Source of the DNA: Verrucomicrobiia bacterium
GTDB taxonomy: Bacteria; Verrucomicrobiota; Verrucomicrobiia; Verrucomicrobiales; DEV007
NCBI GenBank assembly: GCA_020439945.1
Contig: JAGRPB010000005.1
Span: 1-64,000, forward strand
Reading direction: 5' to 3'
Length of the DNA: 64,000 nucleotides
Every line of letters starts with the position of its first letter. The first letter of the stretch is position 1. The translations under genes and the position numbers were made by a program. Below the pieces are notes generated by a model. That model had not been told where the DNA came from. It ran no database searches and worked only from the letters and a program-made list of their open reading frames with translations. Positions 20,361-53,796 of the stretch are shown in pieces.

Positions 20361-20365
20361 GGGAG

Positions 20366-20395
20366 AGGGGTGAGGATCGAGGATCGAGGAGTGAG
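20366..20395. repeat. Left inverted repeat of the four-helix-bundle cassette
   Basis: This 30-bp segment begins AGGGGTGAGGATCGAGGATC on the plus strand. The reverse complement of 20788-20819 begins AGGGGTGAGGAGCGGGGATC. About 22 of the first 25 positions match. The two repeats flank the four-helix-bundle gene, and the left one ends 5 bp from the MoxR start codon. Confidence 0.75.
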
Positions 20396-20397
20396 TT

Positions 20398-20766
20398 TCA
20401 GGTGTGAATGTCGAGTTTCTTGATCAGCGAGGCCAACATCCGGCCTAATTCGTCGAGCTTTCCCAGCAGTTGTTCCGAGGTGTCAGCATCAGAAAAGCCA
20501 AGTCGGTTGGAAAGCAGAATCTGGGTTTCAACTTCAGCGATTGATCCCCGAGCGATTCTCAGGAAGCGAATGTAATCGCGGGTGGAACGACGGCCGTGGC
20601 CCTCCGCAATATTGGATGGAATCGAGACGGAAGCCCGCCGTATTTGTGAGACGAGTCCAAATTTTTCGTCATTCGGAAACTGCTTCGAGAATTCGTAGAT
20701 TGAAGCCGCCAAATCCATAGCCAAATTCCAGACTTTCAAATCGCGGTATGAATTGATCGAACTCAT
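20398..20766 (-). CDS. Four-helix-bundle protein (23S rRNA intervening-sequence family)
   Basis: This 122-residue protein starts at the ATG at 20766 (MSSINSYRDLKVW). Family signatures are SYRDLKVWNLAMDLAASIYEF, FGLVSQIRRASVSIPSNIAE with G-H-G-R, and YIRFLRIARGSIAEVETQI, typical of the bundle proteins first seen in 23S rRNA intervening sequences and related to the Avd accessory proteins of diversity-generating retroelements. The proteins form pentamers and bind nucleic acid; their cellular role is unsettled. No reverse transcriptase or template repeat is nearby. Near-identical inverted repeats directly outside the gene and its exact fit between two operon genes suggest it arrived as a unit. 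Confidence 0.88.
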   Translation of the reverse strand: MSSINSYRDLKVWNLAMDLAASIYEFSKQFPNDEKFGLVSQIRRASVSIPSNIAEGHGRRSTRDYIRFLRIARGSIAEVETQILLSNRLGFSDADTSEQLLGKLDELGRMLASLIKKLDIHT

Positions 20767-20787
20767 CTCAATTGCTCTCGATTCCAT

Positions 20788-20819
20788 CCCTCGACCCTCG
20801 ATCCCCGCTCCTCACCCCT
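20788..20819. repeat. Right inverted repeat of the four-helix-bundle cassette
   Basis: This segment is the partner of 20366-20395 in inverted orientation and ends immediately before the stop codon of the DUF4159 gene at 20820. Together the repeats define a unit of about 454 bp that fills the whole space between the DUF4159 stop and the MoxR start. Confidence 0.75.
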
Positions 20820-36969: not shown

Positions 36970-38316
36970 ATGACTGGGCCGTCGGAGCCGTCGCAGCCAA
37001 CCACCCGGGGCGGAATCTTTCGTCGCCTGGCGATTCCGTTTTCGGTTTTCGCCGCGATCGCCTCGGTCGCGCTGGTCGGATGGACCGATCACACCTTCCA
37101 CCGGGAATCGTTGCGACAGTTCCGCGACATGGCGGAAGCCAATGCCCGCATGATCGACCGGTTGCGGCTCCCCCACTCTCCCGAACTCGCCCAAAAACTT
37201 GCCGCCGTCCTCGGGGTCAGCGTCGGATTTCGCTATTCCGACCGACTGAGCGAAGACCTGGAGCCTGCGATCGCGGACACGATCGAGGGTCTTGTCGCCG
37301 ATAAAGCGAAATCGGGCCGCACCGGCGCCTGGGAAATCGCCGTCGCCCCCGTCAGCGGAGGCTCGGCCCACCTGCTGCTCCTGCGGGAACGCGAACGGTT
37401 CCTCGCCGACGCCTCCAGCTGGCTGTTGCCGGTGGTCATCGTGACCGTGTTCGGCGGCGGCATCGCCTTTCTCATTGCCCGGCGACTGGTGCGGCCGCTG
37501 GTCCTGCTGGATCGATGGCTGCCGAATCTCGATCGCGAATCACCGGCCTCTCCACCGGCCGAAGTGATCGCACGGCCCGACGAGATCGGCGCACTGGCCC
37601 GTTCGCTGGCCGAAGGTCAACGCCGACTCCACGAGGAGCAGGCCCTGCGCCGACAATCGGAACGGCTCGCCACTCTCGGACGCATCGCCACCAGTCTCGC
37701 CCACGAAATCCGAAATCCGGCCGCCGCCATCCGCCTCCACGCCGACCTGATGGCCCGCGCCACTTGCGGCGAGGAAAACGCGGAATCGATCGACCTGATT
37801 CGCGACGAAACCGATCGTATCACCGATCTGGTCAACCAGTGGCTCTTCGTCGCCCGTGGCGCGCCGCCGAAGACGGAAACCAGCGACCTCACCGAGCTCG
37901 CCCGCCGGGTGTTGCATCGGCTGAAACCACAACTCGATCACGCCGGAGTCACGGCGGAGATTCTCGGCGAGTTCCCCGTCAGCGCTTCCATCGACGCCGC
38001 GAGGATGGAGCAGGTGCTGCGAAACCTCTTCCTCAACGCCGCCCAGGCGATGCCGGAAGGCGGCCGGGTCTTCGTTCATCTCGAGCAGCAGAATCCTGAC
38101 GAGGCCATCATCCGAATTCGCGACCATGGTCCAGGATTCAGCGAAACGGCGATCGAACGCTGGCACGAACCGTTTTTCTCCGAGCGCGAAGGCGGCATGG
38201 GACTCGGCCTGACGCTGGTCGCCGAGGTCGTCCAGGGTCACGGTGGTTCGGTCGCGGTCGCCAACCCACCGGACGGCGGCGCCGAAGTGACGCTTCGTAT
38301 TCCGAATCCTTCATGA
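36970..38316 (+). CDS. Membrane sensor histidine kinase (NtrB-like)
   Basis: The protein has 448 residues. TM1 lies about 21-38 and TM2 about 151-170, with a short periplasmic domain of roughly 110 residues; a HAMP segment follows. Phospho-acceptor His245 sits in TSLAHEIRNPAAAIRLHAD. The HATPase domain has NLFLNAAQAMPEGG (N), IRDHGPGFSE (G1) and GMGLGLTLVAEVVQGHGG (G2), all intact. The HEIRNP motif and the partner's type place it near the NtrB/ZraS group. The stop overlaps the start of the regulator gene (ATGA at 38313), so the two are cognate. The input is unknown; targets may include the adjoining outer-membrane gene. Confidence 0.92.
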   Translation: MTGPSEPSQPTTRGGIFRRLAIPFSVFAAIASVALVGWTDHTFHRESLRQFRDMAEANARMIDRLRLPHSPELAQKLAAVLGVSVGFRYSDRLSEDLEPAIADTIEGLVADKAKSGRTGAWEIAVAPVSGGSAHLLLLRERERFLADASSWLLPVVIVTVFGGGIAFLIARRLVRPLVLLDRWLPNLDRESPASPPAEVIARPDEIGALARSLAEGQRRLHEEQALRRQSERLATLGRIATSLAHEIRNPAAAIRLHADLMARATCGEENAESIDLIRDETDRITDLVNQWLFVARGAPPKTETSDLTELARRVLHRLKPQLDHAGVTAEILGEFPVSASIDAARMEQVLRNLFLNAAQAMPEGGRVFVHLEQQNPDEAIIRIRDHGPGFSETAIERWHEPFFSEREGGMGLGLTLVAEVVQGHGGSVAVANPPDGGAEVTLRIPNPS

Positions 38317-41968: not shown

Positions 41969-42745
41969 ATGAAAATCCTTTGTTGCCAGACAGATATCTC
42001 GTGGGAAAACCGGGACGAGAATTTCGAAAAGATTGAGGGAATGCTGGGCGAAACCGTGATCGAGCCCGGGTCCTTGTTGATTTTTCCGGAACTGGCCACG
42101 GCGGGCTTTTCCATGAACGTCCCGGCCATCGCGGAATCCGCTGACGGCCCCTCGGCGCAGTTTTTTGCCAACATCGCGCGGCGCACGGACAGTCACGTGC
42201 TCGCGGGAATCCCGGGGCGCAATCCCGATTCGGGTCTCGGATGGAACGAGGCGGTCTGCTTTTCCCCGGACGGCTCGGAGTTGGGCCGCTACCGGAAGAA
42301 TCACCTCTTTCCCCTCGCCAACGAAGGTCATTTCTACGAAGCCGGAACCGAATCGATCCTGTTGGACTGCGATGGCTGGAAGGTCGCGCCTTTCATCTGC
42401 TACGACCTGCGGTTCCCAGAACTTTTCCGCAACGCCGCGCGCCGGGGCGCCGATCTCTTTGTCGTCATCGCCAACTGGCCCGCGCTTCGCGAGGACCACT
42501 GGACCACGCTACTGCGAGCTCGCGCCATCGAAAACCAGGCTTACGTCGCCGGGGTGAATCGCTGGGGTGCCGACCCGAATCTCGAATACTCCGGCGCCAG
42601 CCTGGTGGTCAGCCCAACTGGCGAAGTGATCGCTCGGGCCGAGTCCGAGCCCACGGTCCTTCGCTCGCTGCTCGAGCGCAACGCCCTCGACGACTGGCGA
42701 TCGCGCTTCCCGGCACTAGCCGACATGAAACCCGCTTCATTCTAA
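41969..42745 (+). CDS. Carbon-nitrogen hydrolase (nitrilase superfamily, omega-amidase/YafV-like)
   Basis: The 258-residue enzyme starts at the ATG at 41969 (MKILCCQTDISWENRDEN). The Glu-Lys-Cys triad is visible: Glu in IFPELATAGFSMN, Lys in GRYRKNHLFPLANEGHF, Cys in APFICYDLRFPELFRN. The GFSMN and WENR segments resemble YafV/Nit2 omega-amidases, which hydrolyse alpha-ketoglutaramate. It is the first gene of a rightward operon and lies 47 bp before the hybrid synthase. In the pathway it could recycle an amide nitrogen donor, trim the product, or simply be linked; the sequence does not decide. Confidence 0.9.
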   Translation: MKILCCQTDISWENRDENFEKIEGMLGETVIEPGSLLIFPELATAGFSMNVPAIAESADGPSAQFFANIARRTDSHVLAGIPGRNPDSGLGWNEAVCFSPDGSELGRYRKNHLFPLANEGHFYEAGTESILLDCDGWKVAPFICYDLRFPELFRNAARRGADLFVVIANWPALREDHWTTLLRARAIENQAYVAGVNRWGADPNLEYSGASLVVSPTGEVIARAESEPTVLRSLLERNALDDWRSRFPALADMKPASF

Positions 42746-42792
42746 CCCTCGTCCTCCTCCCTTCCCCACCGTTCACAGATTTCGCACAGTTT

Positions 42793-45700
42793 ATGAGGTC
42801 CGAGAAACCCGTCATTCAAATCAGTGCCACGTTTACCGCCGAGCCATTGCGCCCGGCGTTGGCGTTCTGGTTGCGTGAACTCGGGATCGACCTCCACATT
42901 CGTTTTTCCGGCTACAATCAGGTCCTGCAACAGGCTCTCGATCCCGCCAGCGAAAGCGCCGCCAATCAGGAAGGGTTCAACGTCTTTCTCGTTCGTCCCG
43001 ACGATCTTCGTGCCGGCAACGGCGCCCACGGACTTGCCGACGAATTGACGAACGCGCTCACCGGTCTTGCTTCCCGCTCGCGGGCCACCCAACTCGTGAT
43101 TTTCTGTCCCCATGCCGAGGCAGATCCGGAAACAACGCGATTCGAGGCGGAGGTTGCCGAAAATCTGGCGCAGCTGCCCAACATCGAAGTCAACAGGGTT
43201 GAGTCCTGGACCCAACCCTCTTCAGTCGACTCGGTTTTCGATCCCGAAGCGGATCGCTCCGGCCGGATTCCCTTCACCGAAACCTTTTACGCCACACTCG
43301 CGACGGCCATCGCGCGCCGGATGAGCGCTCACCTTCGCCCGCCGACGAAGGTGTTGGTGCTCGATGCGGACAACACGCTCTGGGGCGGTGTCTGCGGCGA
43401 AGATGGGGCGGAAAAACTCGACCTCGCCGGACCATGGAAGTCGGTCCGCGACTTCGCAATCGCGAAACGGACCGAAGGTTTCCTGCTTTGTCTCTGCTCG
43501 AAAAACAGCGAAGCCGATGTGGATCGCGTCTTCGAAACTCGCGCCGCGGAACTCGGATTGACGCGTGCCGATTTCGCCGGTTGGAAAGTCAACTGGCAGC
43601 CGAAATCTTCAAACCTGATCGAGCTGGCCGGCGAGCTGAACCTCGGCATCGACAGTTTCGTGTTCCTCGACGACAACCCGGCCGAGATCGCCGAAGTCGC
43701 GGCAAACTGTCCGGGCGTAGTCGCACTCACCCTGCCGAAGGACGAGTCGGAGATTCCCGCCTTCCTTAAAAACCTGTGGAGTCTCGATCGGGTGCGCCTG
43801 ACAGAGGAAGACGCGAAACGCGCCGAGTTTTATCAGCACGAAGCCGAGCGACGCCAACTCAATGAAAGCGCGCCGAGCTTTGCCGATTTCCTCGCCAGCC
43901 TTGAGCTGAAGATCGACATCCACGAAGCCACGACGGCGGAACTGCCGCGCATTTCCCAGCTCACGCTGCGGACAAATCAATTCAACGCGAATGGGCTTCG
44001 ACTTTCCGAGACGGAACTTTCGGAGCGACTCGAAAAGGGAACGCGCTGCCTTGCGGTTCACGTTTCGGATCGCTTTGACGACTACGGTCTGGCTGGCGCG
44101 ATGCTGATTTCCACCGACTTCACCGTCGAAGGATTCATGCTCAGCTGCCGCGCCATGGGCAAGGGCGTCGAGCGAGCCATGGTGACCCGGCTGGCCGAGG
44201 AAACTGAGGCGGCCGGAATCGCTTTCCTTTTCAGCGAAACGGAACGCAATGAGCCCTGCCGTCGATTCTTCGAAGGTATCGGCGCGACTCGCACCTCGAC
44301 TGGCTTTACCCTTCCCACTTCGGCCGCGAAAAGTCTACCGCTCATTCCGATCGAGCCAGTCGCAAAAACGAGCGGCGGCATGAACGGCACCGCCAAGAGA
44401 ACATCGGCGAATCTGCTCTCGAGCGAACTTGCCCATCGGATCGCGAACGAGCTTCGCCATCCGGAAAGGCTCCTCGCGCAATTGCAGGCGGGCAACCTTC
44501 ACCCCCGACCCGAGATCGCCCAGGCATTCGTGAAGCCGGGCAGCAAGCTCGAGAATCGGATCGCCGAGATCTGGCGAAACATCCTCTGCCTCGAAACGGT
44601 CGGCATCGGCGATCCTTTTTCGGCACTCGGCGGAACCTCCGTTCAGCTCGTTCGACTGCACGCTCAATTGCAGCGCGAATTCGATCGCGATATCGCGCTG
44701 ACGGAACTGTTCGAACTGCCGACCATCGCCGATCAGGTTCGTCGCATCGAAGCCGGCGCTGCGGCGGAGAAATCGGTCGAAGTGATCGAACAGATTGAGA
44801 AATCCGACGACGACGCGGTCGCCATCATTGGGATATCACTTCGCGTTCCCGGCGCCAACGATCCTGATCAGTTTTGGGAAAACCTCGCTGGCGGCGTGGA
44901 ATCGCTGTCGCGTTTTGAGCGGGAAGAGATTCCCGAGTTCGAAGACTACGACAAACCGGGCTTCGTGCCGGTGAAAGGCATCATCGACGATGTCGACAAG
45001 TTCGACGCGGCCTTCTTCGGCATTCTTCCGAAGGACGCGAAGATCATGGACCCGCAACAGCGGATCTTTCTCGAACTGGCCTGGGAAGCGATGGAACGCG
45101 CCGGGTATCAGCCGGACAATCTCCGCCATCGCATCGGGGTTTACGCCGGCGCCTATTTCGATTCTTACCTGCTCGCCAACCTGTGCACCGATCGGGAATT
45201 CCTCGCGGACCTGATTCCGCAAATCCAGGTCGGTTCGCTCCAGACGGAACTTGGCAACGACAAGGATTACCTCGCCACGCGCGTCGCCTTCAAACTCAAC
45301 CTGCGCGGCCCGGCGATGACGCTGCAGACGGCTTGCTCGACATCGATGGTCGCCATCGTCGAAGCCTGTCGCGCGATTCAATCCGGCCTCTGCGACATGG
45401 CGCTCGCCGGCGGCGTGACGATCACGCTGCCGCTGAAGCGTGGTTACCACTATACTGAGCAGGGCATGCTTTCCGGCGACGGTCATTGCCGTGCCTTCGA
45501 CGAGAAGGCCTCCGGCACCGTGTTCGGCAACGGCGCGGGCGTGATCATGCTCAAGCGACTGAGCGATGCGATGCGCGATCGCGATCATATCCACGCCGTC
45601 ATTCGCGGTACCGGAATGAACAACGATGGCGGCGTGAAACACAGCTACACCGCGCCGAGTGTCGAAGGACAGACCGACGTCATCCGCATGGCGCATCGCG

Positions 45701-48700
45701 ATGCCGGGATCGATCCGCGAACCATTTCCTACATTGAAGCGCACGGTACCGGCACGCCGCTCGGCGACCCGATCGAGATCACCGCGCTGACCAAGGCGTT
45801 TCGCGCTGGCGGTGTCGAAGAAAACCAGATCTGTGCGGTTGGTTCGCTGAAAACCAACATCGGTCACCTCGACGTGGCTTCCGGTGTGTGCGGTGTGATC
45901 AAGACGGCGCTGTCACTCGAGAAAGCGCAGCTACCGCCCATCGTGCATTTCCAGAAAGCGAATCCGAAGATCGATTTCGAGAACAGCCCGTTCTACGTGA
46001 ACACCACGCTGGCGCCATGGAAGGCCGGCTTCGAGAATGCTCCACGTCGCGCTGGCGTGAGTGCCTTTGGCGTTGGAGGGACGAACGCGCACGTCATCGT
46101 CGAAGAGTCGCCTGTCATCGAATCGAAACCGTCCACCCGGGACTCCCAGTTATTCCTGCTTTCAGGGCGCACCGATGCCGCGCTAGAACAGGCCGCGACC
46201 AACCTGGCCGCATTTGCCGAGAGATCGGACAATCTCGATCCCGCCGACGCGGCGTGGACGCTGGCGATCGGACGCAAGCCTTTCCGTTGCCGTCGCGCGG
46301 TGGTGGCAAAAGATTTCGCCGACCTGAAGGCACAGATCGCCGCGGGCAAAGGCGCGAAAGGCATCGCCGACCGTAGCAATCCGCCGGTGAACTTCATGTT
46401 CCCCGGCCAGGGCGCGCAGCATCTCGACATGGCGCGGGATTTCTACGAGTCCGAACCACGTTTCCGCGAGCTGATTGATCGTTGCTCGGAGATTCTTCGT
46501 CCGCATCTCGGATTGAACCTGACCGACGTGTTGTTCCCCGGCGAGGGCGCTGATCGCGAATCGGCTTCAAAACAGCTCAAGCATACCGTACTCGCTCAGC
46601 CGGCGATCTTCGTGATCGAATACGCGATGGCCGATCTCTGGCAGAGCTGGGGCATCGAGCCGGCGGCGATGATCGGTCACAGCGTCGGCGAGTTCGTGGC
46701 GGCGTGCCATGCCGGCGTCTTCGATCTCGAAAGCGGACTGGAACTGCTCGCGGCTCGCGGTCGACTGATGGGCGATCTCCCCGGCGGTGGCATGCTTTCC
46801 GTTCGATTGGCCGCCGAGGAATTGAAAAAGCGGCTTCCGGATTCGCTCGATCTCGCGGCCGTGAATGGTCCCGCCCTGTGCGTGGTGGCTGGACCGCACG
46901 AGGAGTTGGACGCCTTCGCAAAGCAACTCGAAGCCGACGACATCATCGCGAAACCGCTGCACACCTCGCACGCCTTCCATTCGTGGATGATGGATCCGGT
47001 GATCGATCGATTCGCGGCCTGCTTTGAGAAAATCGAGCTGCGCGCGCCTTCGAAACCGATCCTTTCGACCGTCACCGGCGAGTGGCTGACCCAAGCGGAA
47101 ACCACCGATCCCCGCTACTGGGCGAAGCACTTGCGCGAGACAGTTCGTTTCCATGATGCCGTCGCGATCCTCGGCGCCGTACAGCCGGATCAGGTTTTCC
47201 TGGAAGTCGGCCCCGGCCAAACCCTGACCGGACTGGCGCGGCAAACGCTGAATCGAAAGGACGGTCACTTCGCCGTTTCGACCTGCCGCCACGTGAAGGA
47301 GGAAGGCTCCGATCACGCCAACGCCCTCGAATCGCTCGGCAAACTTTGGACGGCTGGAGTCGAGGTGAATTGGGAAGCCTTTTACGGACATGAGACCCGC
47401 AAGCGCGTCGTTCTGCCGACCTATCCCTTCGAGCGGAAACGCCACTGGGTCGATCCCAAGCCGATGGACGCCGCCGCCATCCCCGCGACGGTCCCGCCGA
47501 CACCTGTCGCCCTCCCCGTGCCCGCGCCAGAGGCGCTGCCTCAGCAACCCGATTTTTCCCGCACCGCTATGAGCACTCCCGAAAACATCTCGCGCCTCGA
47601 CGCCCTCGGCGAAGCGGTCCGCGGCATCCTGACCGATCTCTCCGGCATTCCCGAAGAGGATCTCGCGGGTGACGCGACCTTCCTCGAACTGGGCTTCGAC
47701 TCGCTCCTGCTGACCCAAGTCAGCAAGGCCTTTCAGGATGGATTTCAGACCGAAATCACGATGCGGCAACTGATGGCGGAGGTCTCCACCATCGACGCGA
47801 TGGTCAATCACCTGGATGCCACGCTTGCTCCGGACCAGTACCGCGATACCCAATCCATTCCGGTTCTCGAGACGCCAGCCTCGGCTCCAACTCCAGTCAC
47901 TGCAGCGCCTCAACCCGCGGTTCCTGTGCAGACTCCGACCATTGCTCCTGCGCCGATTCCCAGTTTCACGCCGACCTCTGCCGGAAGCGGCGTTGAAAGC
48001 CTCGTTGCTCAACAGCTCGAACTGATGCGCCAGCAACTGGCGTTGCTTCAGGGTCATCCCGTCGCGCCCGCCGCTTTGCCTCAAGCCGCACCGGCTCCGG
48101 TCGCACCTGTTCCCGCCGCACCACAGCCCGCGCCGGCACCGGCTCCCAAGCCCGCCGCGAAATCCTCTTCGAACGGCGGCAATGGCTCCGGCTCCAGTTC
48201 TCCGGACGTTTCCGCGCCTTCGACGACAATCAGTCGCGACGCCGAAACGCTCACCGATCAGCAGCAGCGTCATCTCGATGAACTCATCGCGAAGTACATC
48301 GACAAGACCCGCACCTCGAAGGAACTGACCGCAAAATATCGCCAATGGTATGCCGATCCCCGGACCGTTTCCGGTTTCAATCGGAACTGGAAAGAGATGA
48401 TCTACCAGATCGCGGTGAAGAAATCGAAGGGCTCGCGGCTGCTCGACATCGACGGGAATGAGTACATCGATCTGCTCAACGGTTTCGGTCCGAACTTCCT
48501 GGGTCACTCGCCGGATTTCGTGACCAAGGCGCTGCACGAGCAACTCGATCGCGGCGTCGAAGTCGGTCCGCAGAGCGTGACCGCCATGGAAGCGGCCAAG
48601 CTGTTCTGCGAGATCACCGGCAACGGACGCGCCAGCTTTGTGAACACCGGTTCGGAAGCGGTCCAGGCCGCGATGCGCCTCGCGCGGACCGTGACCGGTC

Positions 48701-51700
48701 GCGACAAGATCGTGATTTTTGCCAAGGACTATCACGGTAACTTCGACGAGATGCTGGTGCGCTCGGTCGGCGAAGGCGACAAGCGTCGCTCCCTGCCCAT
48801 CGCGCCGGGAATCCCCTTCCGTGCGGTCAACGATGTGATCGTGCTGCCCTACGGTTCCGACGAAGCGCTCGAAGTGATTCGCAACCAGGCCAGCGAACTC
48901 GCCGCGGTGATCGTCGAACCGATTCAGAGCCGGCGTCCCGAGTTTCAGCCCAAGGATTTCATCCGCGAAGTTCGCGCCATCACCGAGAGATCGGGCACGG
49001 TGTTCGTTTTCGACGAGGTCATCACCGGTTTCCGAACCGGTCCTCGCGGCGCCCAGGAATACTATGGGGTGAAGGCCGACATCGCGACCTACGGCAAGGT
49101 CATCGGCGGCGGCATGCCCATCGGCGTGGTCGCCGGAAAAGCGGAATACATGGACACCTTCGATGGTGGCATCTGGCAGTACGGCGACGATTCCTTCCCC
49201 GAGAAGGGCGTGACTTTCTTCGCCGGCACTTTCGTTCGTCATCCGCTGGCGATGGCCGCGACCAAGCAGGTGCTGACTTTCCTCCGCGACAAGGGTCCCG
49301 AATTCTGGACCACGGTCCGAGAGCGAGCCAATCGTCTCGCCGGATCGGTCGACCGGATGTTCGTCGAAAACGAGGCACCGTTCCGGATGCCGAATTTTGG
49401 CTCGCAGATGTTCGTCCGCGTCACTGAGGATCACAAGTATGCCAATCTGCTCTTCTTCCACTTGAGGCAGAAGGGCGTGTTCCTCCTCGAAGGGTTCCCC
49501 ACCTACATGACGGCGGCGCACACGGACGAGGACGTCGACTACGTGATCGACGCCTTTACGGAATCGGTGGCCGAATTGCAGGAAGGCGGATTCTTCACCC
49601 GGCCCGCGCACCTTCCCGCGCCACACCTCAATGGTTCTCGACTCACCGGCCCCAAGCGGCTGCTCACCGATGTCGCGAATCCAGCGGTCTCCGAACCGGA
49701 AGTCCAGTTTGTCGCTCAGACGTCCGACGATCCAGGACGCCTCTATCCGATGACCGAATCACTGCACGAGGTATGGCTCGCTTCCCAAGCCAGCGAAAAT
49801 GCCTCCTTGTGTTTCAACGAAGTCAACACGCTCACCTTTTCGGGCCCGCTCGACGAAGCCGCGCTGAAACAGGCCGTGCAGGATGTCGTGGCGCGTCACG
49901 AGGGTCTTCGCGCCGTCTACCAGGCCGATGGCGAGGGTTTTCGTGTGCAACCGGAACTCACGATCGAGGTTCCGGCCAAGGCTGTTGACTCGGTCGACCC
50001 GATCGCAGCCGACGCCGAGATCGAAGCGCTGCTGAAAGCCGAACAAACAACGCCGTTCGACCTGGAAAACGGACCGCTTTTCCGCGCCACCCTGGTCCGG
50101 AAAAACACGGACGAACACGTCCTCATTCTCAACGCCCACCACCTCGCCTGCGACGGTTGGTCGTTCAACCTGGTCACCGCCGAACTCAGTCAGGCCTATG
50201 CCTCGCGAAAGAACGGCGAGACACCGCAACTCGAGAAACCGAGTCGGCAATTCGGCGATCACGCCATCGAAACGGCCTGGAAAGAACAGCAGTCCGATCG
50301 GAGCGACAGCGAAGCCTACTGGCTCGAACGATTCGCCGATCCAGTGCCGCCTCTTTCGCTGCCCACCGATTTCGCCACGGCCGACGAACCCGACTTTCGC
50401 GCCGACACGCTCGCCGAACAACTCGATGCCGAGACCTGCCGAGCTCTCAAAAAGGCCGCCGGAAAATCCGGCGCCACGCTCTTCGCGCTCGTGATGAGCG
50501 CCTACCAGGCCCTGCTCCACCGGATCAGCCGTCAGCACCGGCTGGCGGTCGCTTTCCCCGTCGCGGGCCAGAATTCCGAAGGCGCCCAAGGTCTGGTCGG
50601 GCATTGTGTGAACTTCCTGCCGTTCGTGTCCGACATCGATCCGGACCAGAAATTCTCGGCCTTCGTCGGCGACGTACAGCGCCATCTCCTGAACGCACTC
50701 GAGCATTCCGACTATACCTACGGAAAGCTGATCAAGAAACTGGGCATCGCCCGTTCCGTGGGCCGGAGTTCCCTGGTGGAAGCCGTCTTCAACCTGGAGC
50801 GGATGGATGGTTATGAAGAGTTTGCCGGGGTCAAAACTTCGATCGCCGAAGTCGATCGGCGGTTCACCGGAAACCCGCTTTTCCTCAAGGGGCTCGAAAG
50901 CGAAAACGGTCTCGAACTTCGCTTCGATTTCCAGACCGGACTTTTCTCGAAGGAAACAGTTCGTCACTGGCTGGCTTCCCTGCGAGCGATCCTGGAAAAG
51001 GTGATCGCGACGCCTGACGCCACCGTGTCCGAGATCGCGTCTTCGATGGCCGACTGGCAATTCGATCTGCTGAAAAGCTGGAACGACACCGCCACCGACT
51101 ATCCTCGCGACAAGTCGATCATCGATCTCTTCGACGAGGTCGTCGCCGAGCATCCCCGCGCGGTCGCGATTCGCCTCGACGACAGAGAGATTTCCTACCG
51201 TGAAATTTCCGATCAGGCGGACCGGTTTGCCGCGTTTCTGGAGAATAATGCAAAGGGGTCACTCCAACGAGTCGGTCTGTTTCTCGAACGCACGCCGGAC
51301 CTGATCGCGGCCGAATTCGCCATCCTGAAAACCGGCGCCGCCTGCGTGCCGCTCGATCCCGAGTATCCCTGCGAGCGTCTCCAGTTTGTCCTGAAAGACA
51401 GCGGCGTGGATGCCGTGCTGACCACCGAGTCACTCAAGGACCGGATGCCTCGCGATCTCAATATCCTGCTCGTCGAGGATGCGAGCCGGACTGGCAAAGC
51501 TGACCTTTCTCAACGCACGATCGAGCCCAACGCACCCGCGTTTCTGCTCTACACGTCCGGCTCCACCGGCACTCCGAAAGGGGCCATCATTCCGCATCGG
51601 GCAGTCAACCGACTCGTTAGAAACACAAACCTCTGCGAACTCGGTCGCGGCGAAGTGATTCTGCATCCGTCGAGCGTCTGCTTTGACATCATGCTGTTCG

Positions 51701-53796
51701 AGATTTTCGGCGCACTCCTGAATGGCGGGACCGTGGCGCTTCCAACATCCGGACCGATCAACATCGAAGAGATCACCCGCTGCATTCGCGAACTGGGAGT
51801 GACCACCCTCTGGCTGACCAGCGGACTCTTCCAGATCATGGTCGAGGAAGACATCGACGCCTTCGCCGGGCTCACGCAGCTCGTCACCGGCGGCGATGTG
51901 GTCTCGGCGGATCACGCCCGGCGTGTGCTCGAAAGACATCCCGCTCTCCGGCTGATCAACGGTTACGGCCCAACGGAAAACACCACCTTCACGACTTGCC
52001 ATCAGATCGTGACCGGCGATTTCAACGGCAGACCTCTCCCCATCGGACGTCCCCTGCCGAACAATTCTGTCTGGATTCTCGATGAATCCGGCCTGCCAGT
52101 TTCGCCCTGCATTCCCGGTGAGCTGTGCTGCGGCGGAGACGGTCTGGCTCTGGAATACCTGAACCGTCCGGAGCTGACGGCGGAACGCTTCTTCGCCGAT
52201 CCGTTCAGCGACTCTCCAGGTGCCCGCCTCTATCATACCGGCGACCTCTGCCGCTACCGGGCTGACGGTGAGCTGGAGTTTTTCGGTCGCATCGATCACC
52301 AGGTGAAAGTCCGCGGTTTCCGGGTCGAACTGGGCGAAATCGAAGCGCGGCTGCTCGACTTCCCCAAGGTTCATCAGGTCAAAGTCATCGCCCACGGAAA
52401 CGACGCCGGGAGCAAGTCCCTGATCGCCTATGCTTCGCCTCTCACCGGCCAATCCCTGACCAGCGCCGAGTTGGCCGACTACCTGCGCTCCAAGTTACCG
52501 GCCTACATGGTGCCGAACACCTTCGTGATCCTCGACGAACTGCCCATCAACCGAAATGGCAAGATCGACCGCCACGCGCTACCGATACCCGAGCAGCTCG
52601 ATGAAACGACCGATGGTGAGGCCCATCCGGGCGTCAATGGCAACCAGCCTAGCCCGACCGAAGAGGCGCTCACCGTTTTCTGGAAAGAGATCCTCCGCGT
52701 TCGCGAGATCGGACTCGACGATGACTTCTTCGCGATGGGCGGTCACTCTCTCCTGGGGATGCGCCTGTTCTCCCGCATCCAGCGATATCTCGGCATTTCC
52801 CTCCCGCTGGCCATGCTCTACAAGGCGCCAACGATTCGTCAACTGGGACGGGTGATCGATCATGGTCTGGAGCAGGAAGCGACTGAATCCGAAACGGAAG
52901 AACGCGAAACGCTTCCAGCCGAAGAATCTCCCACGAAGACGACGGCATCCCCATCGGAACACGTGCCTGCCCCGCTTGCCGATACGACCATCGTCGTTCA
53001 GCCGAAAGGCGATCAACGACCCCTGTTCGCGGTTCACGGAGGCGATGGCGGCATCCTTTTCTACTGCAACCTGGCGGAGCGCCTGGGTGAGCACCGACCC
53101 TTCTATGCCTTCGAAGCTCCGGCGCTGACGGCGGGCGGTCCGATCCCGGATGAATCGGTCGAAACGACCGCGGCTCGCTACGTTTCCGAATTGCGAAAAG
53201 TGCAACCGGAAGGTCCCTACCTGCTCTGCGGCTATTCCTTCGGCGGCGTCGTCGCCTATGAAATGGCGCATCAGTTGAACGCCGAAGGGCAGGAAATCAC
53301 CTTTCTCGGTCTAATCGACACCGAGAATCCCGCCGCCATGGTGAGGAAACTCAGTGTCGCCGAGCGTGTCGCTTTCAACTGGCAAAAGCGCAATCGCGAG
53401 GACGCCGGCGTCATGGAAAAGATCGGCAGGCTCAGCAAGCGGGTCGGTACCGGCATTGCCTACCGTCTCTGGTTTGAAGTCGAAGGCGCCGCCGCCAAAA
53501 CGCTGCCTCCGTCGAAGAATACCGGCTGGCTACGCCAGGCTCAGATTCGCACCTCCTACGAACGCGCCATGGATGCCTACGTGCCGAAGCCGATCGACGG
53601 TCAGGTCACCCTCTTTCGCGCGGAACAGGGCAACGACAAGTTCGATGTCGGTGAAGACTACGGCTGGGGACCGCTGGCGTCCCGCGGCGTGGAAGTCATC
53701 GACGTTCCGGGCAATCACATCACCATCTTCGACAAACAGAACATTGATGGCTTTGCTGAAGCTTTCCGTGACGCATTGTCCGGCGTGCGGGTGTAA
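42793..53796 (+). CDS. Hybrid PKS/NRPS megasynthase: FkbH-ACP-KS-AT-ACP-AMT-C-A-PCP-TE
   Basis: A 3667-residue chain from ATG 42793 (MRSEKPVIQIS); the open frame upstream overlaps the nitrilase gene. FkbH-like HAD domain with GNAT-like tail (about 170-520) begins LVLDADNTLWGGVCGEDG. ACP1 has Ser616 (GGTSVQL). KS: Cys848, His984, His1025. AT: Ser1297 (GHSVGE) and HAFH at 1393-1396, the malonyl type. ACP2: Ser1637. A Pro/Ala-rich linker (about 1685-1815) leads to a class III aminotransferase with PLP Lys2102 (TYGKVIGGG). C: HHLACDG at 2449-2455. A: YTSGSTGTPKG from 2920. PCP: Ser3319. TE: Ser3482 (GYSFGG), His3642. No KR, DH or ER. The order suggests a C3 starter, one malonate extension, transamination of the beta-keto group and addition of one amino acid. 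Confidence 0.95.
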   Translation: MRSEKPVIQISATFTAEPLRPALAFWLRELGIDLHIRFSGYNQVLQQALDPASESAANQEGFNVFLVRPDDLRAGNGAHGLADELTNALTGLASRSRATQLVIFCPHAEADPETTRFEAEVAENLAQLPNIEVNRVESWTQPSSVDSVFDPEADRSGRIPFTETFYATLATAIARRMSAHLRPPTKVLVLDADNTLWGGVCGEDGAEKLDLAGPWKSVRDFAIAKRTEGFLLCLCSKNSEADVDRVFETRAAELGLTRADFAGWKVNWQPKSSNLIELAGELNLGIDSFVFLDDNPAEIAEVAANCPGVVALTLPKDESEIPAFLKNLWSLDRVRLTEEDAKRAEFYQHEAERRQLNESAPSFADFLASLELKIDIHEATTAELPRISQLTLRTNQFNANGLRLSETELSERLEKGTRCLAVHVSDRFDDYGLAGAMLISTDFTVEGFMLSCRAMGKGVERAMVTRLAEETEAAGIAFLFSETERNEPCRRFFEGIGATRTSTGFTLPTSAAKSLPLIPIEPVAKTSGGMNGTAKRTSANLLSSELAHRIANELRHPERLLAQLQAGNLHPRPEIAQAFVKPGSKLENRIAEIWRNILCLETVGIGDPFSALGGTSVQLVRLHAQLQREFDRDIALTELFELPTIADQVRRIEAGAAAEKSVEVIEQIEKSDDDAVAIIGISLRVPGANDPDQFWENLAGGVESLSRFEREEIPEFEDYDKPGFVPVKGIIDDVDKFDAAFFGILPKDAKIMDPQQRIFLELAWEAMERAGYQPDNLRHRIGVYAGAYFDSYLLANLCTDREFLADLIPQIQVGSLQTELGNDKDYLATRVAFKLNLRGPAMTLQTACSTSMVAIVEACRAIQSGLCDMALAGGVTITLPLKRGYHYTEQGMLSGDGHCRAFDEKASGTVFGNGAGVIMLKRLSDAMRDRDHIHAVIRGTGMNNDGGVKHSYTAPSVEGQTDVIRMAHRDAGIDPRTISYIEAHGTGTPLGDPIEITALTKAFRAGGVEENQICAVGSLKTNIGHLDVASGVCGVIKTALSLEKAQLPPIVHFQKANPKIDFENSPFYVNTTLAPWKAGFENAPRRAGVSAFGVGGTNAHVIVEESPVIESKPSTRDSQLFLLSGRTDAALEQAATNLAAFAERSDNLDPADAAWTLAIGRKPFRCRRAVVAKDFADLKAQIAAGKGAKGIADRSNPPVNFMFPGQGAQHLDMARDFYESEPRFRELIDRCSEILRPHLGLNLTDVLFPGEGADRESASKQLKHTVLAQPAIFVIEYAMADLWQSWGIEPAAMIGHSVGEFVAACHAGVFDLESGLELLAARGRLMGDLPGGGMLSVRLAAEELKKRLPDSLDLAAVNGPALCVVAGPHEELDAFAKQLEADDIIAKPLHTSHAFHSWMMDPVIDRFAACFEKIELRAPSKPILSTVTGEWLTQAETTDPRYWAKHLRETVRFHDAVAILGAVQPDQVFLEVGPGQTLTGLARQTLNRKDGHFAVSTCRHVKEEGSDHANALESLGKLWTAGVEVNWEAFYGHETRKRVVLPTYPFERKRHWVDPKPMDAAAIPATVPPTPVALPVPAPEALPQQPDFSRTAMSTPENISRLDALGEAVRGILTDLSGIPEEDLAGDATFLELGFDSLLLTQVSKAFQDGFQTEITMRQLMAEVSTIDAMVNHLDATLAPDQYRDTQSIPVLETPASAPTPVTAAPQPAVPVQTPTIAPAPIPSFTPTSAGSGVESLVAQQLELMRQQLALLQGHPVAPAALPQAAPAPVAPVPAAPQPAPAPAPKPAAKSSSNGGNGSGSSSPDVSAPSTTISRDAETLTDQQQRHLDELIAKYIDKTRTSKELTAKYRQWYADPRTVSGFNRNWKEMIYQIAVKKSKGSRLLDIDGNEYIDLLNGFGPNFLGHSPDFVTKALHEQLDRGVEVGPQSVTAMEAAKLFCEITGNGRASFVNTGSEAVQAAMRLARTVTGRDKIVIFAKDYHGNFDEMLVRSVGEGDKRRSLPIAPGIPFRAVNDVIVLPYGSDEALEVIRNQASELAAVIVEPIQSRRPEFQPKDFIREVRAITERSGTVFVFDEVITGFRTGPRGAQEYYGVKADIATYGKVIGGGMPIGVVAGKAEYMDTFDGGIWQYGDDSFPEKGVTFFAGTFVRHPLAMAATKQVLTFLRDKGPEFWTTVRERANRLAGSVDRMFVENEAPFRMPNFGSQMFVRVTEDHKYANLLFFHLRQKGVFLLEGFPTYMTAAHTDEDVDYVIDAFTESVAELQEGGFFTRPAHLPAPHLNGSRLTGPKRLLTDVANPAVSEPEVQFVAQTSDDPGRLYPMTESLHEVWLASQASENASLCFNEVNTLTFSGPLDEAALKQAVQDVVARHEGLRAVYQADGEGFRVQPELTIEVPAKAVDSVDPIAADAEIEALLKAEQTTPFDLENGPLFRATLVRKNTDEHVLILNAHHLACDGWSFNLVTAELSQAYASRKNGETPQLEKPSRQFGDHAIETAWKEQQSDRSDSEAYWLERFADPVPPLSLPTDFATADEPDFRADTLAEQLDAETCRALKKAAGKSGATLFALVMSAYQALLHRISRQHRLAVAFPVAGQNSEGAQGLVGHCVNFLPFVSDIDPDQKFSAFVGDVQRHLLNALEHSDYTYGKLIKKLGIARSVGRSSLVEAVFNLERMDGYEEFAGVKTSIAEVDRRFTGNPLFLKGLESENGLELRFDFQTGLFSKETVRHWLASLRAILEKVIATPDATVSEIASSMADWQFDLLKSWNDTATDYPRDKSIIDLFDEVVAEHPRAVAIRLDDREISYREISDQADRFAAFLENNAKGSLQRVGLFLERTPDLIAAEFAILKTGAACVPLDPEYPCERLQFVLKDSGVDAVLTTESLKDRMPRDLNILLVEDASRTGKADLSQRTIEPNAPAFLLYTSGSTGTPKGAIIPHRAVNRLVRNTNLCELGRGEVILHPSSVCFDIMLFEIFGALLNGGTVALPTSGPINIEEITRCIRELGVTTLWLTSGLFQIMVEEDIDAFAGLTQLVTGGDVVSADHARRVLERHPALRLINGYGPTENTTFTTCHQIVTGDFNGRPLPIGRPLPNNSVWILDESGLPVSPCIPGELCCGGDGLALEYLNRPELTAERFFADPFSDSPGARLYHTGDLCRYRADGELEFFGRIDHQVKVRGFRVELGEIEARLLDFPKVHQVKVIAHGNDAGSKSLIAYASPLTGQSLTSAELADYLRSKLPAYMVPNTFVILDELPINRNGKIDRHALPIPEQLDETTDGEAHPGVNGNQPSPTEEALTVFWKEILRVREIGLDDDFFAMGGHSLLGMRLFSRIQRYLGISLPLAMLYKAPTIRQLGRVIDHGLEQEATESETEERETLPAEESPTKTTASPSEHVPAPLADTTIVVQPKGDQRPLFAVHGGDGGILFYCNLAERLGEHRPFYAFEAPALTAGGPIPDESVETTAARYVSELRKVQPEGPYLLCGYSFGGVVAYEMAHQLNAEGQEITFLGLIDTENPAAMVRKLSVAERVAFNWQKRNREDAGVMEKIGRLSKRVGTGIAYRLWFEVEGAAAKTLPPSKNTGWLRQAQIRTSYERAMDAYVPKPIDGQVTLFRAEQGNDKFDVGEDYGWGPLASRGVEVIDVPGNHITIFDKQNIDGFAEAFRDALSGVRV
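43189..43227. repeat. Dispersed palindromic repeat, copy 3 (inside the megasynthase)
   Basis: Arms AACAGGGTTGAGTCC and GGACCCAACCCTCTT match at 13 of 15 positions when folded. The repeat is read in frame as NRVESWTQPSSVDS (residues 134-147), just before the FkbH catalytic core and in a segment that looks like a linker. NRVES is also what copy 2 encodes. Confidence 0.75.

Follow-up and report, generated by a model that had tools for sequence, protein, structure and literature searches.

In cyanobacteria, the intergenic repeats known as STRR consist of G-rich tandem units of 7 bp that often form inverted pairs, and REP/REPIN elements are defined by one or a few repeat sequences common to the copies of a genome. 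To our knowledge, the ends of the familiar transposon families are unlike terminal repeats that drift in sequence yet keep their period and their mutual match. Elements have also been described within ribosomal genes. The intervening sequence (IVS) of the Coxiella burnetii 23S rRNA gene, according to the accessible portions of the article (PMC4990558), is 428 nt long, carries a four-helix-bundle (4HB)-type (S23p) open reading frame (ORF) and a 28-bp terminal stem that is cut by RNase III in vitro, and displays, upstream of the start, tandem GACAGAT heptamers in a number that differs from strain to strain. In the same portions it is stated to be unclear where such elements come from, with reference to a mobile-element hypothesis (PMC4990558). 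Heptamer arrays and their inverted pairs were described by Rehm et al. in Xanthomonas and Nostoc (GGGAATC, GGGGATT), and within the available sections of that work the 4HB gene is not part of the description (PMC4692102). Excerpts of other articles liken the PF05635 family to Avd (PMC10053308), list a 4HB gene in regions called phage elements (PMC5524665), and treat transposase-bearing 23S insertions (PMC2672173), and the terms "four helix", "S23", "heptam" and "inverted" are absent from the text of a study of rRNA insertions in CPR (PMC11270868). No paper joining 4HB genes to heptad inverted arrays outside rRNA was recognized among the papers listed from open-licence PubMed Central, preprints excluded.

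The locus described here lies in a window of 64,000 nucleotides (64 kb; contig JAGRPB010000005.1) from a Verrucomicrobiia bacterium of the order Verrucomicrobiales, in a minus-strand operon where a DUF4159 gene (21725-20820) is followed by a 4HB gene (20787-20398), by the gene of a MoxR-type AAA ATPase (AAA_3; 20360-19314) and, further on, by DUF58. The initial annotation of this DNA, made from the letters alone, had proposed that the 4HB gene and imperfect inverted repeats of about 30 bp directly outside it fit exactly between the DUF4159 stop and the MoxR start, and this anatomy is borne out in all its parts. The ORF (20398-20787, minus strand) encodes 129 residues, or 122 from an internal start at 20766, and its product belongs to the PF05635 and TIGR02436 four-helix-bundle proteins, exceeding both curated cut-offs (139.6 bits with a cut-off of 33.8, and 136 bits with a cut-off of 24, respectively). 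The closest solved structure is that of XCC0516 (2gsc, E 1e-27), and solved relatives display five chains per entry. The unit (20361-20819, 459 bp) fills the entire gap between the MoxR start (20360) and the DUF4159 stop (20820), and holds, besides the ORF, two inverted arms on the same strand: one downstream of the gene (20361-20395), C-rich in the sense direction, and one upstream (20788-20819), G-rich in sense, which starts directly after the DUF4159 stop codon. The arms are 83% complementary over 29 nt (20361-20389 and 20789-20817), with a core of 24 nt (20366-20389 and 20796-20819) that is 92% complementary, and their inverted match scores 20, compared to a maximum of 18 in 20,000 shuffles of the two intergenic pieces. 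Each arm is in addition, which the initial annotation did not note, a degenerate tandem array of approximately four heptads (e.g. GAGGATC GAGGATC GAGGAGT); the period-7 score of the left intergenic piece, 16, was reached by 0/20,000 shuffles, and that of the right piece is 13 (P 0.00015, 20,000 shuffles). The two arms are the only period-7 arrays scoring at least 12 in the window, which holds two weaker ones, scoring 11 at 37704 and 9 at 37034. Elsewhere in the window (42241-53796), a plus-strand open frame of 3851 aa overlaps several long minus-strand frames, and one side must be a shadow.

The genome to which the window belongs contains seven PF05635 genes, all of which (7/7, flanks read by eye) are accompanied by heptad arms. 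Every unit is different: GGTTAGC, GAGGATC, GTTGGCT, AATCAGT, TTTTCAG, GGTTCAG and one near GGAGCTT. The expectation that other bundle genes would carry the same terminal repeats was therefore not fulfilled: arms are present, but they are lineage-specific heptad arrays with no common sequence, and since the heptads differ between copies, looking for one shared terminal repeat would have yielded no hits. The conditions that would have refuted the proposal, among them a lack of repeats around all other copies, did not materialize either. In a set from the order, comprising 80 of its 115 PF05635 matches (the remaining 35 being weak or not fetched), a period-7 score of at least 9 was found in 56/80 upstream flanks, 41/79 downstream flanks and 25/800 control segments, with periods other than 7, 14 aside, not similarly raised; the inverted match exceeded the 99th percentile of mismatched flank pairs in 41/79 elements. 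(Denominators of 79, 78 and 70 leave out elements with a flank that ends at a contig end.) In 80 loci of many phyla, a period-7 score of at least 10 was reached by 41/78 upstream flanks, 36/80 downstream flanks and 36/800 controls; period 8 was also raised (20/78, 17/80 and 6/800, respectively), and inverted arms surpassed the 99th percentile in 48/78. A minority of flanks in both collections showed no period-7 signal. A clear unit length was assigned to 137 of 165 elements, being 7 bp in 105, 8 bp in 27, 6 bp in three, and 9 and 11 bp in one each, and in the 50 order elements with clear arms the median arm measures 32.5 bp and the median total, from outer arm end to outer arm end, 487 bp. Arms made of short tandem arrays, with a 4HB gene between them, recur across the order and many phyla.

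These elements also share a characteristic placement. An array follows the stop codon of the upstream ORF in 71 elements, and in 51 of these it starts 0-10 bases past that codon (median 6); the upstream neighbour is co-directional with the element in 62/70 cases and both neighbours in 50/70. Strands of neighbours were assigned from the longest ORFs, and an antisense ORF is the apparent source of error in at least one "-,-" case (nuoI/J in G029). The possibility that heptads are seeded from host sequence at the stop codon, hinted at by single sites, was rejected as a general rule, the in-register match being 3.20 compared to 2.80-2.81 in controls and strong (at least 7 of 10) in five of 71 elements. 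When read inward, the arm is G-rich, G exceeding C in 90/106 elements and C exceeding G in 12/106. A 4HB subfamily starting with EKLKVYQ (L066, L072; G022:C461, G027:C6) has 6-bp units and reversed polarity, with a C-rich upstream arm.

The initial annotation had viewed the gene and its repeats as a mobile cassette, and operons with an empty DUF4159/MoxR site were indeed found. In 30 fetched DUF4159 loci, the 4HB gene is present in two, one being the window and the other a sister species whose heptads differ, and MoxR directly follows DUF4159 in nine others, six of them bare junctions and three with an array but no gene; at the remaining loci MoxR does not directly follow, or the locus is unreadable. 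The three arrays belong to one genus (L098, L100, L101) and are single heptad arrays after the DUF4159 stop, which could represent either the scar of a lost element or an independent array. Five of the six other sites of the same genome have a clean empty junction in sister or family genomes, and at the sixth (L006) the sole junction seen without the gene (L279) holds other DNA. No period-7 array scoring at least 10 was detected in 13/14 junction loci without a 4HB gene, and three gene-less junctions (L265, L270, L279) contain other inserted DNA. At two of these (L270, L279), where the genome of the window has a bundle element, the other inserted DNA of the sister species has no 4HB match. An apparent decayed inverted pair without a gene was noted, by eye only, at a G001 site (L261). 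Some sites are occupied across several genera (sucC, nuoI/nuoJ), which indicates that residence can be long. Movement of the copy in the window is inferred from relatives, no movement of that copy having been seen.

Plasmids allow occupied and empty sites to be compared at close range. Forty plasmid records, nearly all of them cyanobacterial, carry a 4HB gene. The entire arms-plus-gene segment, of approximately 420 bp, is present in Trichormus variabilis plasmid C (L285) and absent from two plasmids (L286, L287) whose identity to it around the site is 97-98%. The sequence at the site is ..AAAAAGTAATTAACAAATAAATATG in the empty plasmids and, in the occupied plasmid, ..AAAAAGTAATAAATCAG.. on its left side and ..TTCTTCTTTGTAATTAACAAATAAATATG on its right side, which leaves a possible target duplication of 5-8 bp, either GTAAT or 8 bp with one mismatch. 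Calothrix and Nostoc plasmid pairs likewise differ by the presence of the element, with no clean duplication. Short target duplications of the kind that a transposition event could leave behind are clean at one site at most, and are ambiguous or absent at the other junctions. In place of the whole element found in another plasmid, Nostoc plasmid L295 contains an inverted pair of arrays with no gene. In another plasmid operon, an element occupies one junction (L297, L298, L326) and a different 4HB element lies one gene further in sister plasmid L284, so that each element's plasmid serves as the empty site of the other. Furthermore, elements at three unrelated sites (L285, L296, L297) can be aligned with 78-82% identity along 416-419 bp, an alignment that covers the arms and stops there, and the close copies L285 and L289 differ by whole heptads in one arm. 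In relatives, therefore, the arms and the gene form a single segment that a gene junction either contains or lacks; most such segments follow a stop codon directly and share the direction of the upstream gene. The suggestion that gene and repeats move as a small element gains support from the empty sites, from the occupied and empty plasmid pairs and from the one element in three contexts.

These comparisons bear on a rival reading, in which the 4HB gene is an ordinary resident of the operon that is inherited vertically, the arms being a by-product. Same-site orthologues in sister species and across genera are in its favour, as is purifying selection on the ORF, dN/dS or pN/pS being 0.06-0.27 in 8/9 ORF pairs, with the ninth pair too close to tell. 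However, a single junction holds, in different genomes, two unrelated 4HB subfamilies that are only 28-29% identical; three paralogues of G018, 70-76% identical and all with octads, lie in unrelated contexts; and plasmids that are 97-98% identical differ by the element alone. Purifying selection is also seen between elements of different contexts (0.10-0.15 for L285/L296/L297). The resident-gene reading is largely refuted by the plasmid pairs and, as an account of this unit, is very improbable, although it could still hold for single old sites.

At 60-70% 4HB identity, heptads match in 5.5 of 7 positions between different contexts (12 pairs) and in 5.6 between shared contexts (10 pairs), and at 30-50% identity sharing is at background. 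Contexts were regarded as different, for the permutation analysis, if blastp linked none of the flanking ORFs within 1.5 kb; the heptad match of 31 such pairs was 4.77 of 7 compared to 3.57 (0/2000 permutations), and ten non-overlapping pairs gave P 0.0002. On a quick 4HB tree of 132 tips, a unit length of 7 or 8 requires 15 changes, compared to a shuffled mean of 24.8 and a minimum of 19 (1000 shuffles); the tree excludes the 28/165 elements without a clear unit length, and the count omits five with other units (6, 9, 11). Since heptad sequence and unit length follow the 4HB phylogeny across contexts, the arms are part of the inherited unit. Relatives thus demonstrate that arms travel with the gene into new contexts and that the ORF is under purifying selection; on the strength of these sequence comparisons, protein and arms evolve together.

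Such inheritance also weighs on the notion that heptad arrays are simple repeats made by the host, which gather in intergenic gaps and between two of which the bundle gene merely happens to lie. Arrays do occur without the gene, as single arrays at DUF4159/MoxR in the three genomes of one genus and as inverted pairs both elsewhere and at plasmid site L295, and heptamer repeats are known, from the available sections of the corresponding article, in Xanthomonas and Nostoc (PMC4692102); in addition, 40/137 strong arrays (score of at least 12) lie more than 300 bp from any 4HB gene. However, 13/14 gene-less junction loci lack an array scoring at least 10, the arms move with the gene in the plasmid pairs, in the three contexts and in the heptad permutation, and sampling yielded 2 arrays in 351 kb of six genomes without the gene versus 18 in 326 kb of seven genomes with it. 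One genome with seven 4HB genes (G029) showed no array in 120 kb of random samples. The host-repeat reading is already disfavoured, and we consider it quite improbable. Two neighbourhoods (L069 2837-5377, and L041) each contain many arrays of one heptad type (AAATGCT and AAGATGG, respectively), including some inverted pairs without a gene, as if spread locally.

The match between the arms could also have a reason at the RNA level, in that the arms of the operon transcript could pair into a double-stranded stem that encloses the ORF and that RNase III cuts, in the manner of 23S rRNA intervening sequences, with selection on the stem keeping the arms complementary. The predicted fold does pair the arms (z -3.5 compared to shuffles), and RNase III excision has been shown, in the accessible part of the report, for the Coxiella element of the same anatomy (PMC4990558). 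Nevertheless, in the 106/165 elements whose arms could be aligned, 136 mismatches are of a kind tolerated in a sense RNA (G.U, U.G) and 187 of a kind that is not (A.C, C.A; P 0.005), which is the wrong direction for RNA selection. As G.U mismatches are no more favoured than A.C ones, copying at the DNA level, slippage or a recent origin accounts for the match better than does selection for an RNA stem; the latter was rejected as the reason for the arm match in the absence of an excess of G.U-compatible mismatches. The RNA-level reading as a whole remains conceivable, if rather unlikely.

The identity of the factor that would move the unit was approached through candidate partners. A Y1 (HUH) transposase could act in trans, as proposed for REP elements: counts of Y1_Tnp and 4HB genes correlate across 38 genomes (Spearman 0.64, or 0.55 with genome size held, without correction for phylogeny), and some of the 20 Y1_Tnp genes sampled have strong arrays of 7- or 8-bp units nearby. 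However, the sampled genes have palindromic repeats of their own, and a 4HB element occurs without any Y1_Tnp match in G026, a genome that is 99% complete. On this one counter-example Y1_Tnp was rejected as an obligatory partner, and its involvement is considered unlikely. The Y1_Tnp loci of G029 and G000 (L316 264-811, L317 1509-1708, L306 1478-1576, L305 1-72) display very long perfect heptad or octad arrays, of up to approximately 78 units, beside palindromic repeats. A retroelement, in which a reverse transcriptase would copy the unit via RNA with the protein as Avd-type partner of that enzyme, has in its favour a weak similarity (29 bits to Avd, cut-off 80; 24.6 bits to bAvd, cut-off 40) and the co-directional upstream gene in 62/70 cases; yet RVT_1 was unmatched in three element-rich genomes, G011 (16 4HB genes), G029 (one contig, seven) and G016 (five). 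A reverse transcriptase was thus rejected as an obligatory partner, and we give next to no credence to the retroelement. Carriage by phages was not detected in 50,697 phage records; in IMG/VR, 23 contigs hold a 4HB gene, 19/23 with a period-7 arm scoring at least 10, and some of these contigs look like duplicates.

Taken together, the preferred explanation is that the segment 20361-20819 is probably a copy of a widespread small mobile DNA unit, composed of a single 4HB ORF and of terminal inverted repeats that are tandem arrays of a short unit, usually of 7 bp; how it inserts, what moves it in trans, what the 4HB protein does and how the arms stay matched are inferred. Insertion would occur at the DNA level via a staggered cut, as the possible 5-8 bp duplication at the cleanest site suggests, with the cutting and joining enzyme presumably supplied in trans by the host or by another element, although no partner enzyme was found. 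The 4HB protein would be kept for acting on behalf of the element, probably as an oligomer that binds its own arm repeats, a role for which there are no binding data, and copying or slippage between the arms may keep them matched as they drift together. In the transcript, the arms can form a stem around the gene, similarly to those of 23S rRNA intervening sequences, and such a stem may lessen the impact on the host operon. The "non-autonomous" character initially assigned to the unit has not been shown, as the bundle gene could itself be required. Several observations weigh against this explanation: old-looking sites, arrays at a distance from a 4HB gene, the absence of arrays from the G029 samples, flanks devoid of period-7 signal, target duplications of ambiguous extent and, for the copy in the window, the lack of any observed movement. 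A bolder conjecture, with a real but less than even chance of being correct, is that the 4HB protein is all that a new class of mobile element encodes for its own mobility, and that the ends of this element are a self-renewing tandem array and not a fixed sequence; unit length (7 or 8 bp in most cases, 6 or 11 in others) would be set by the protein lineage, the array would be rewritten in both arms together, arrays from lost elements would be one source of the heptamer repeats seen in Xanthomonas and cyanobacteria, and an element that landed in a ribosomal gene would have become the 23S rRNA intervening sequence. The finding ties together the origin of 23S rRNA intervening sequences, the nature of the scattered bacterial 4HB genes and the reason for heptamer arrays, and the existence of occupied and empty sites in culturable Nostocales renders the mechanism of movement testable.

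The unit can finally be placed among known systems. Inverted ends that move with the unit and empty sites, as expected of a MITE- or IS-like mobile unit with terminal inverted repeats, are met in relatives, and at the site of the window by six bare junctions. As in REP/REPIN elements and their RAYT (Y1_Tnp) genes, short inverted elements lie between genes, in a coding form and in gene-less forms; however, the seven copies of the genome carry seven different heptads, so that the shared-repeat criterion is not met, and the gene encodes a four-helix bundle and not an HUH nuclease. The protein has a fold and profile related to those of Avd, but falls below both curated cut-offs of that group, and no reverse transcriptase was found in genomes rich in units (no RVT_1 in G011, G029 or G016), and thus membership in the diversity-generating retroelements is not met (29 bits compared to 80). 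With the heptamer arrays of Xanthomonas and Nostoc, as far as the available description of these reaches, the arms share G-rich 7-bp tandem units, inverted pairs and an intergenic location; those arrays have no described 4HB link and are generally not tied to mobile elements, whereas here arms and gene form one unit. The Coxiella IVS, in the accessible account of it, is likewise one 4HB-type ORF between complementary ends, with tandem heptamers and a similar size (428 nt in Coxiella, 459 bp in the window). Complementary ends and heptamers by the ORF, two features of a 23S rRNA intervening sequence, are thus met and location inside a 23S rRNA gene is not, the unit lying between the DUF4159 and MoxR protein genes; furthermore, the heptads differ from that of Coxiella and were here traced through many lineages, and movement with the arms is shown by empty sites. 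Its place in a protein operon means that the unit is not a 23S IVS, though built like one; by this analogy it looks like a free-standing relative of the 23S IVS in protein operons, and the 23S IVS may in turn be such an element residing in a ribosomal gene.
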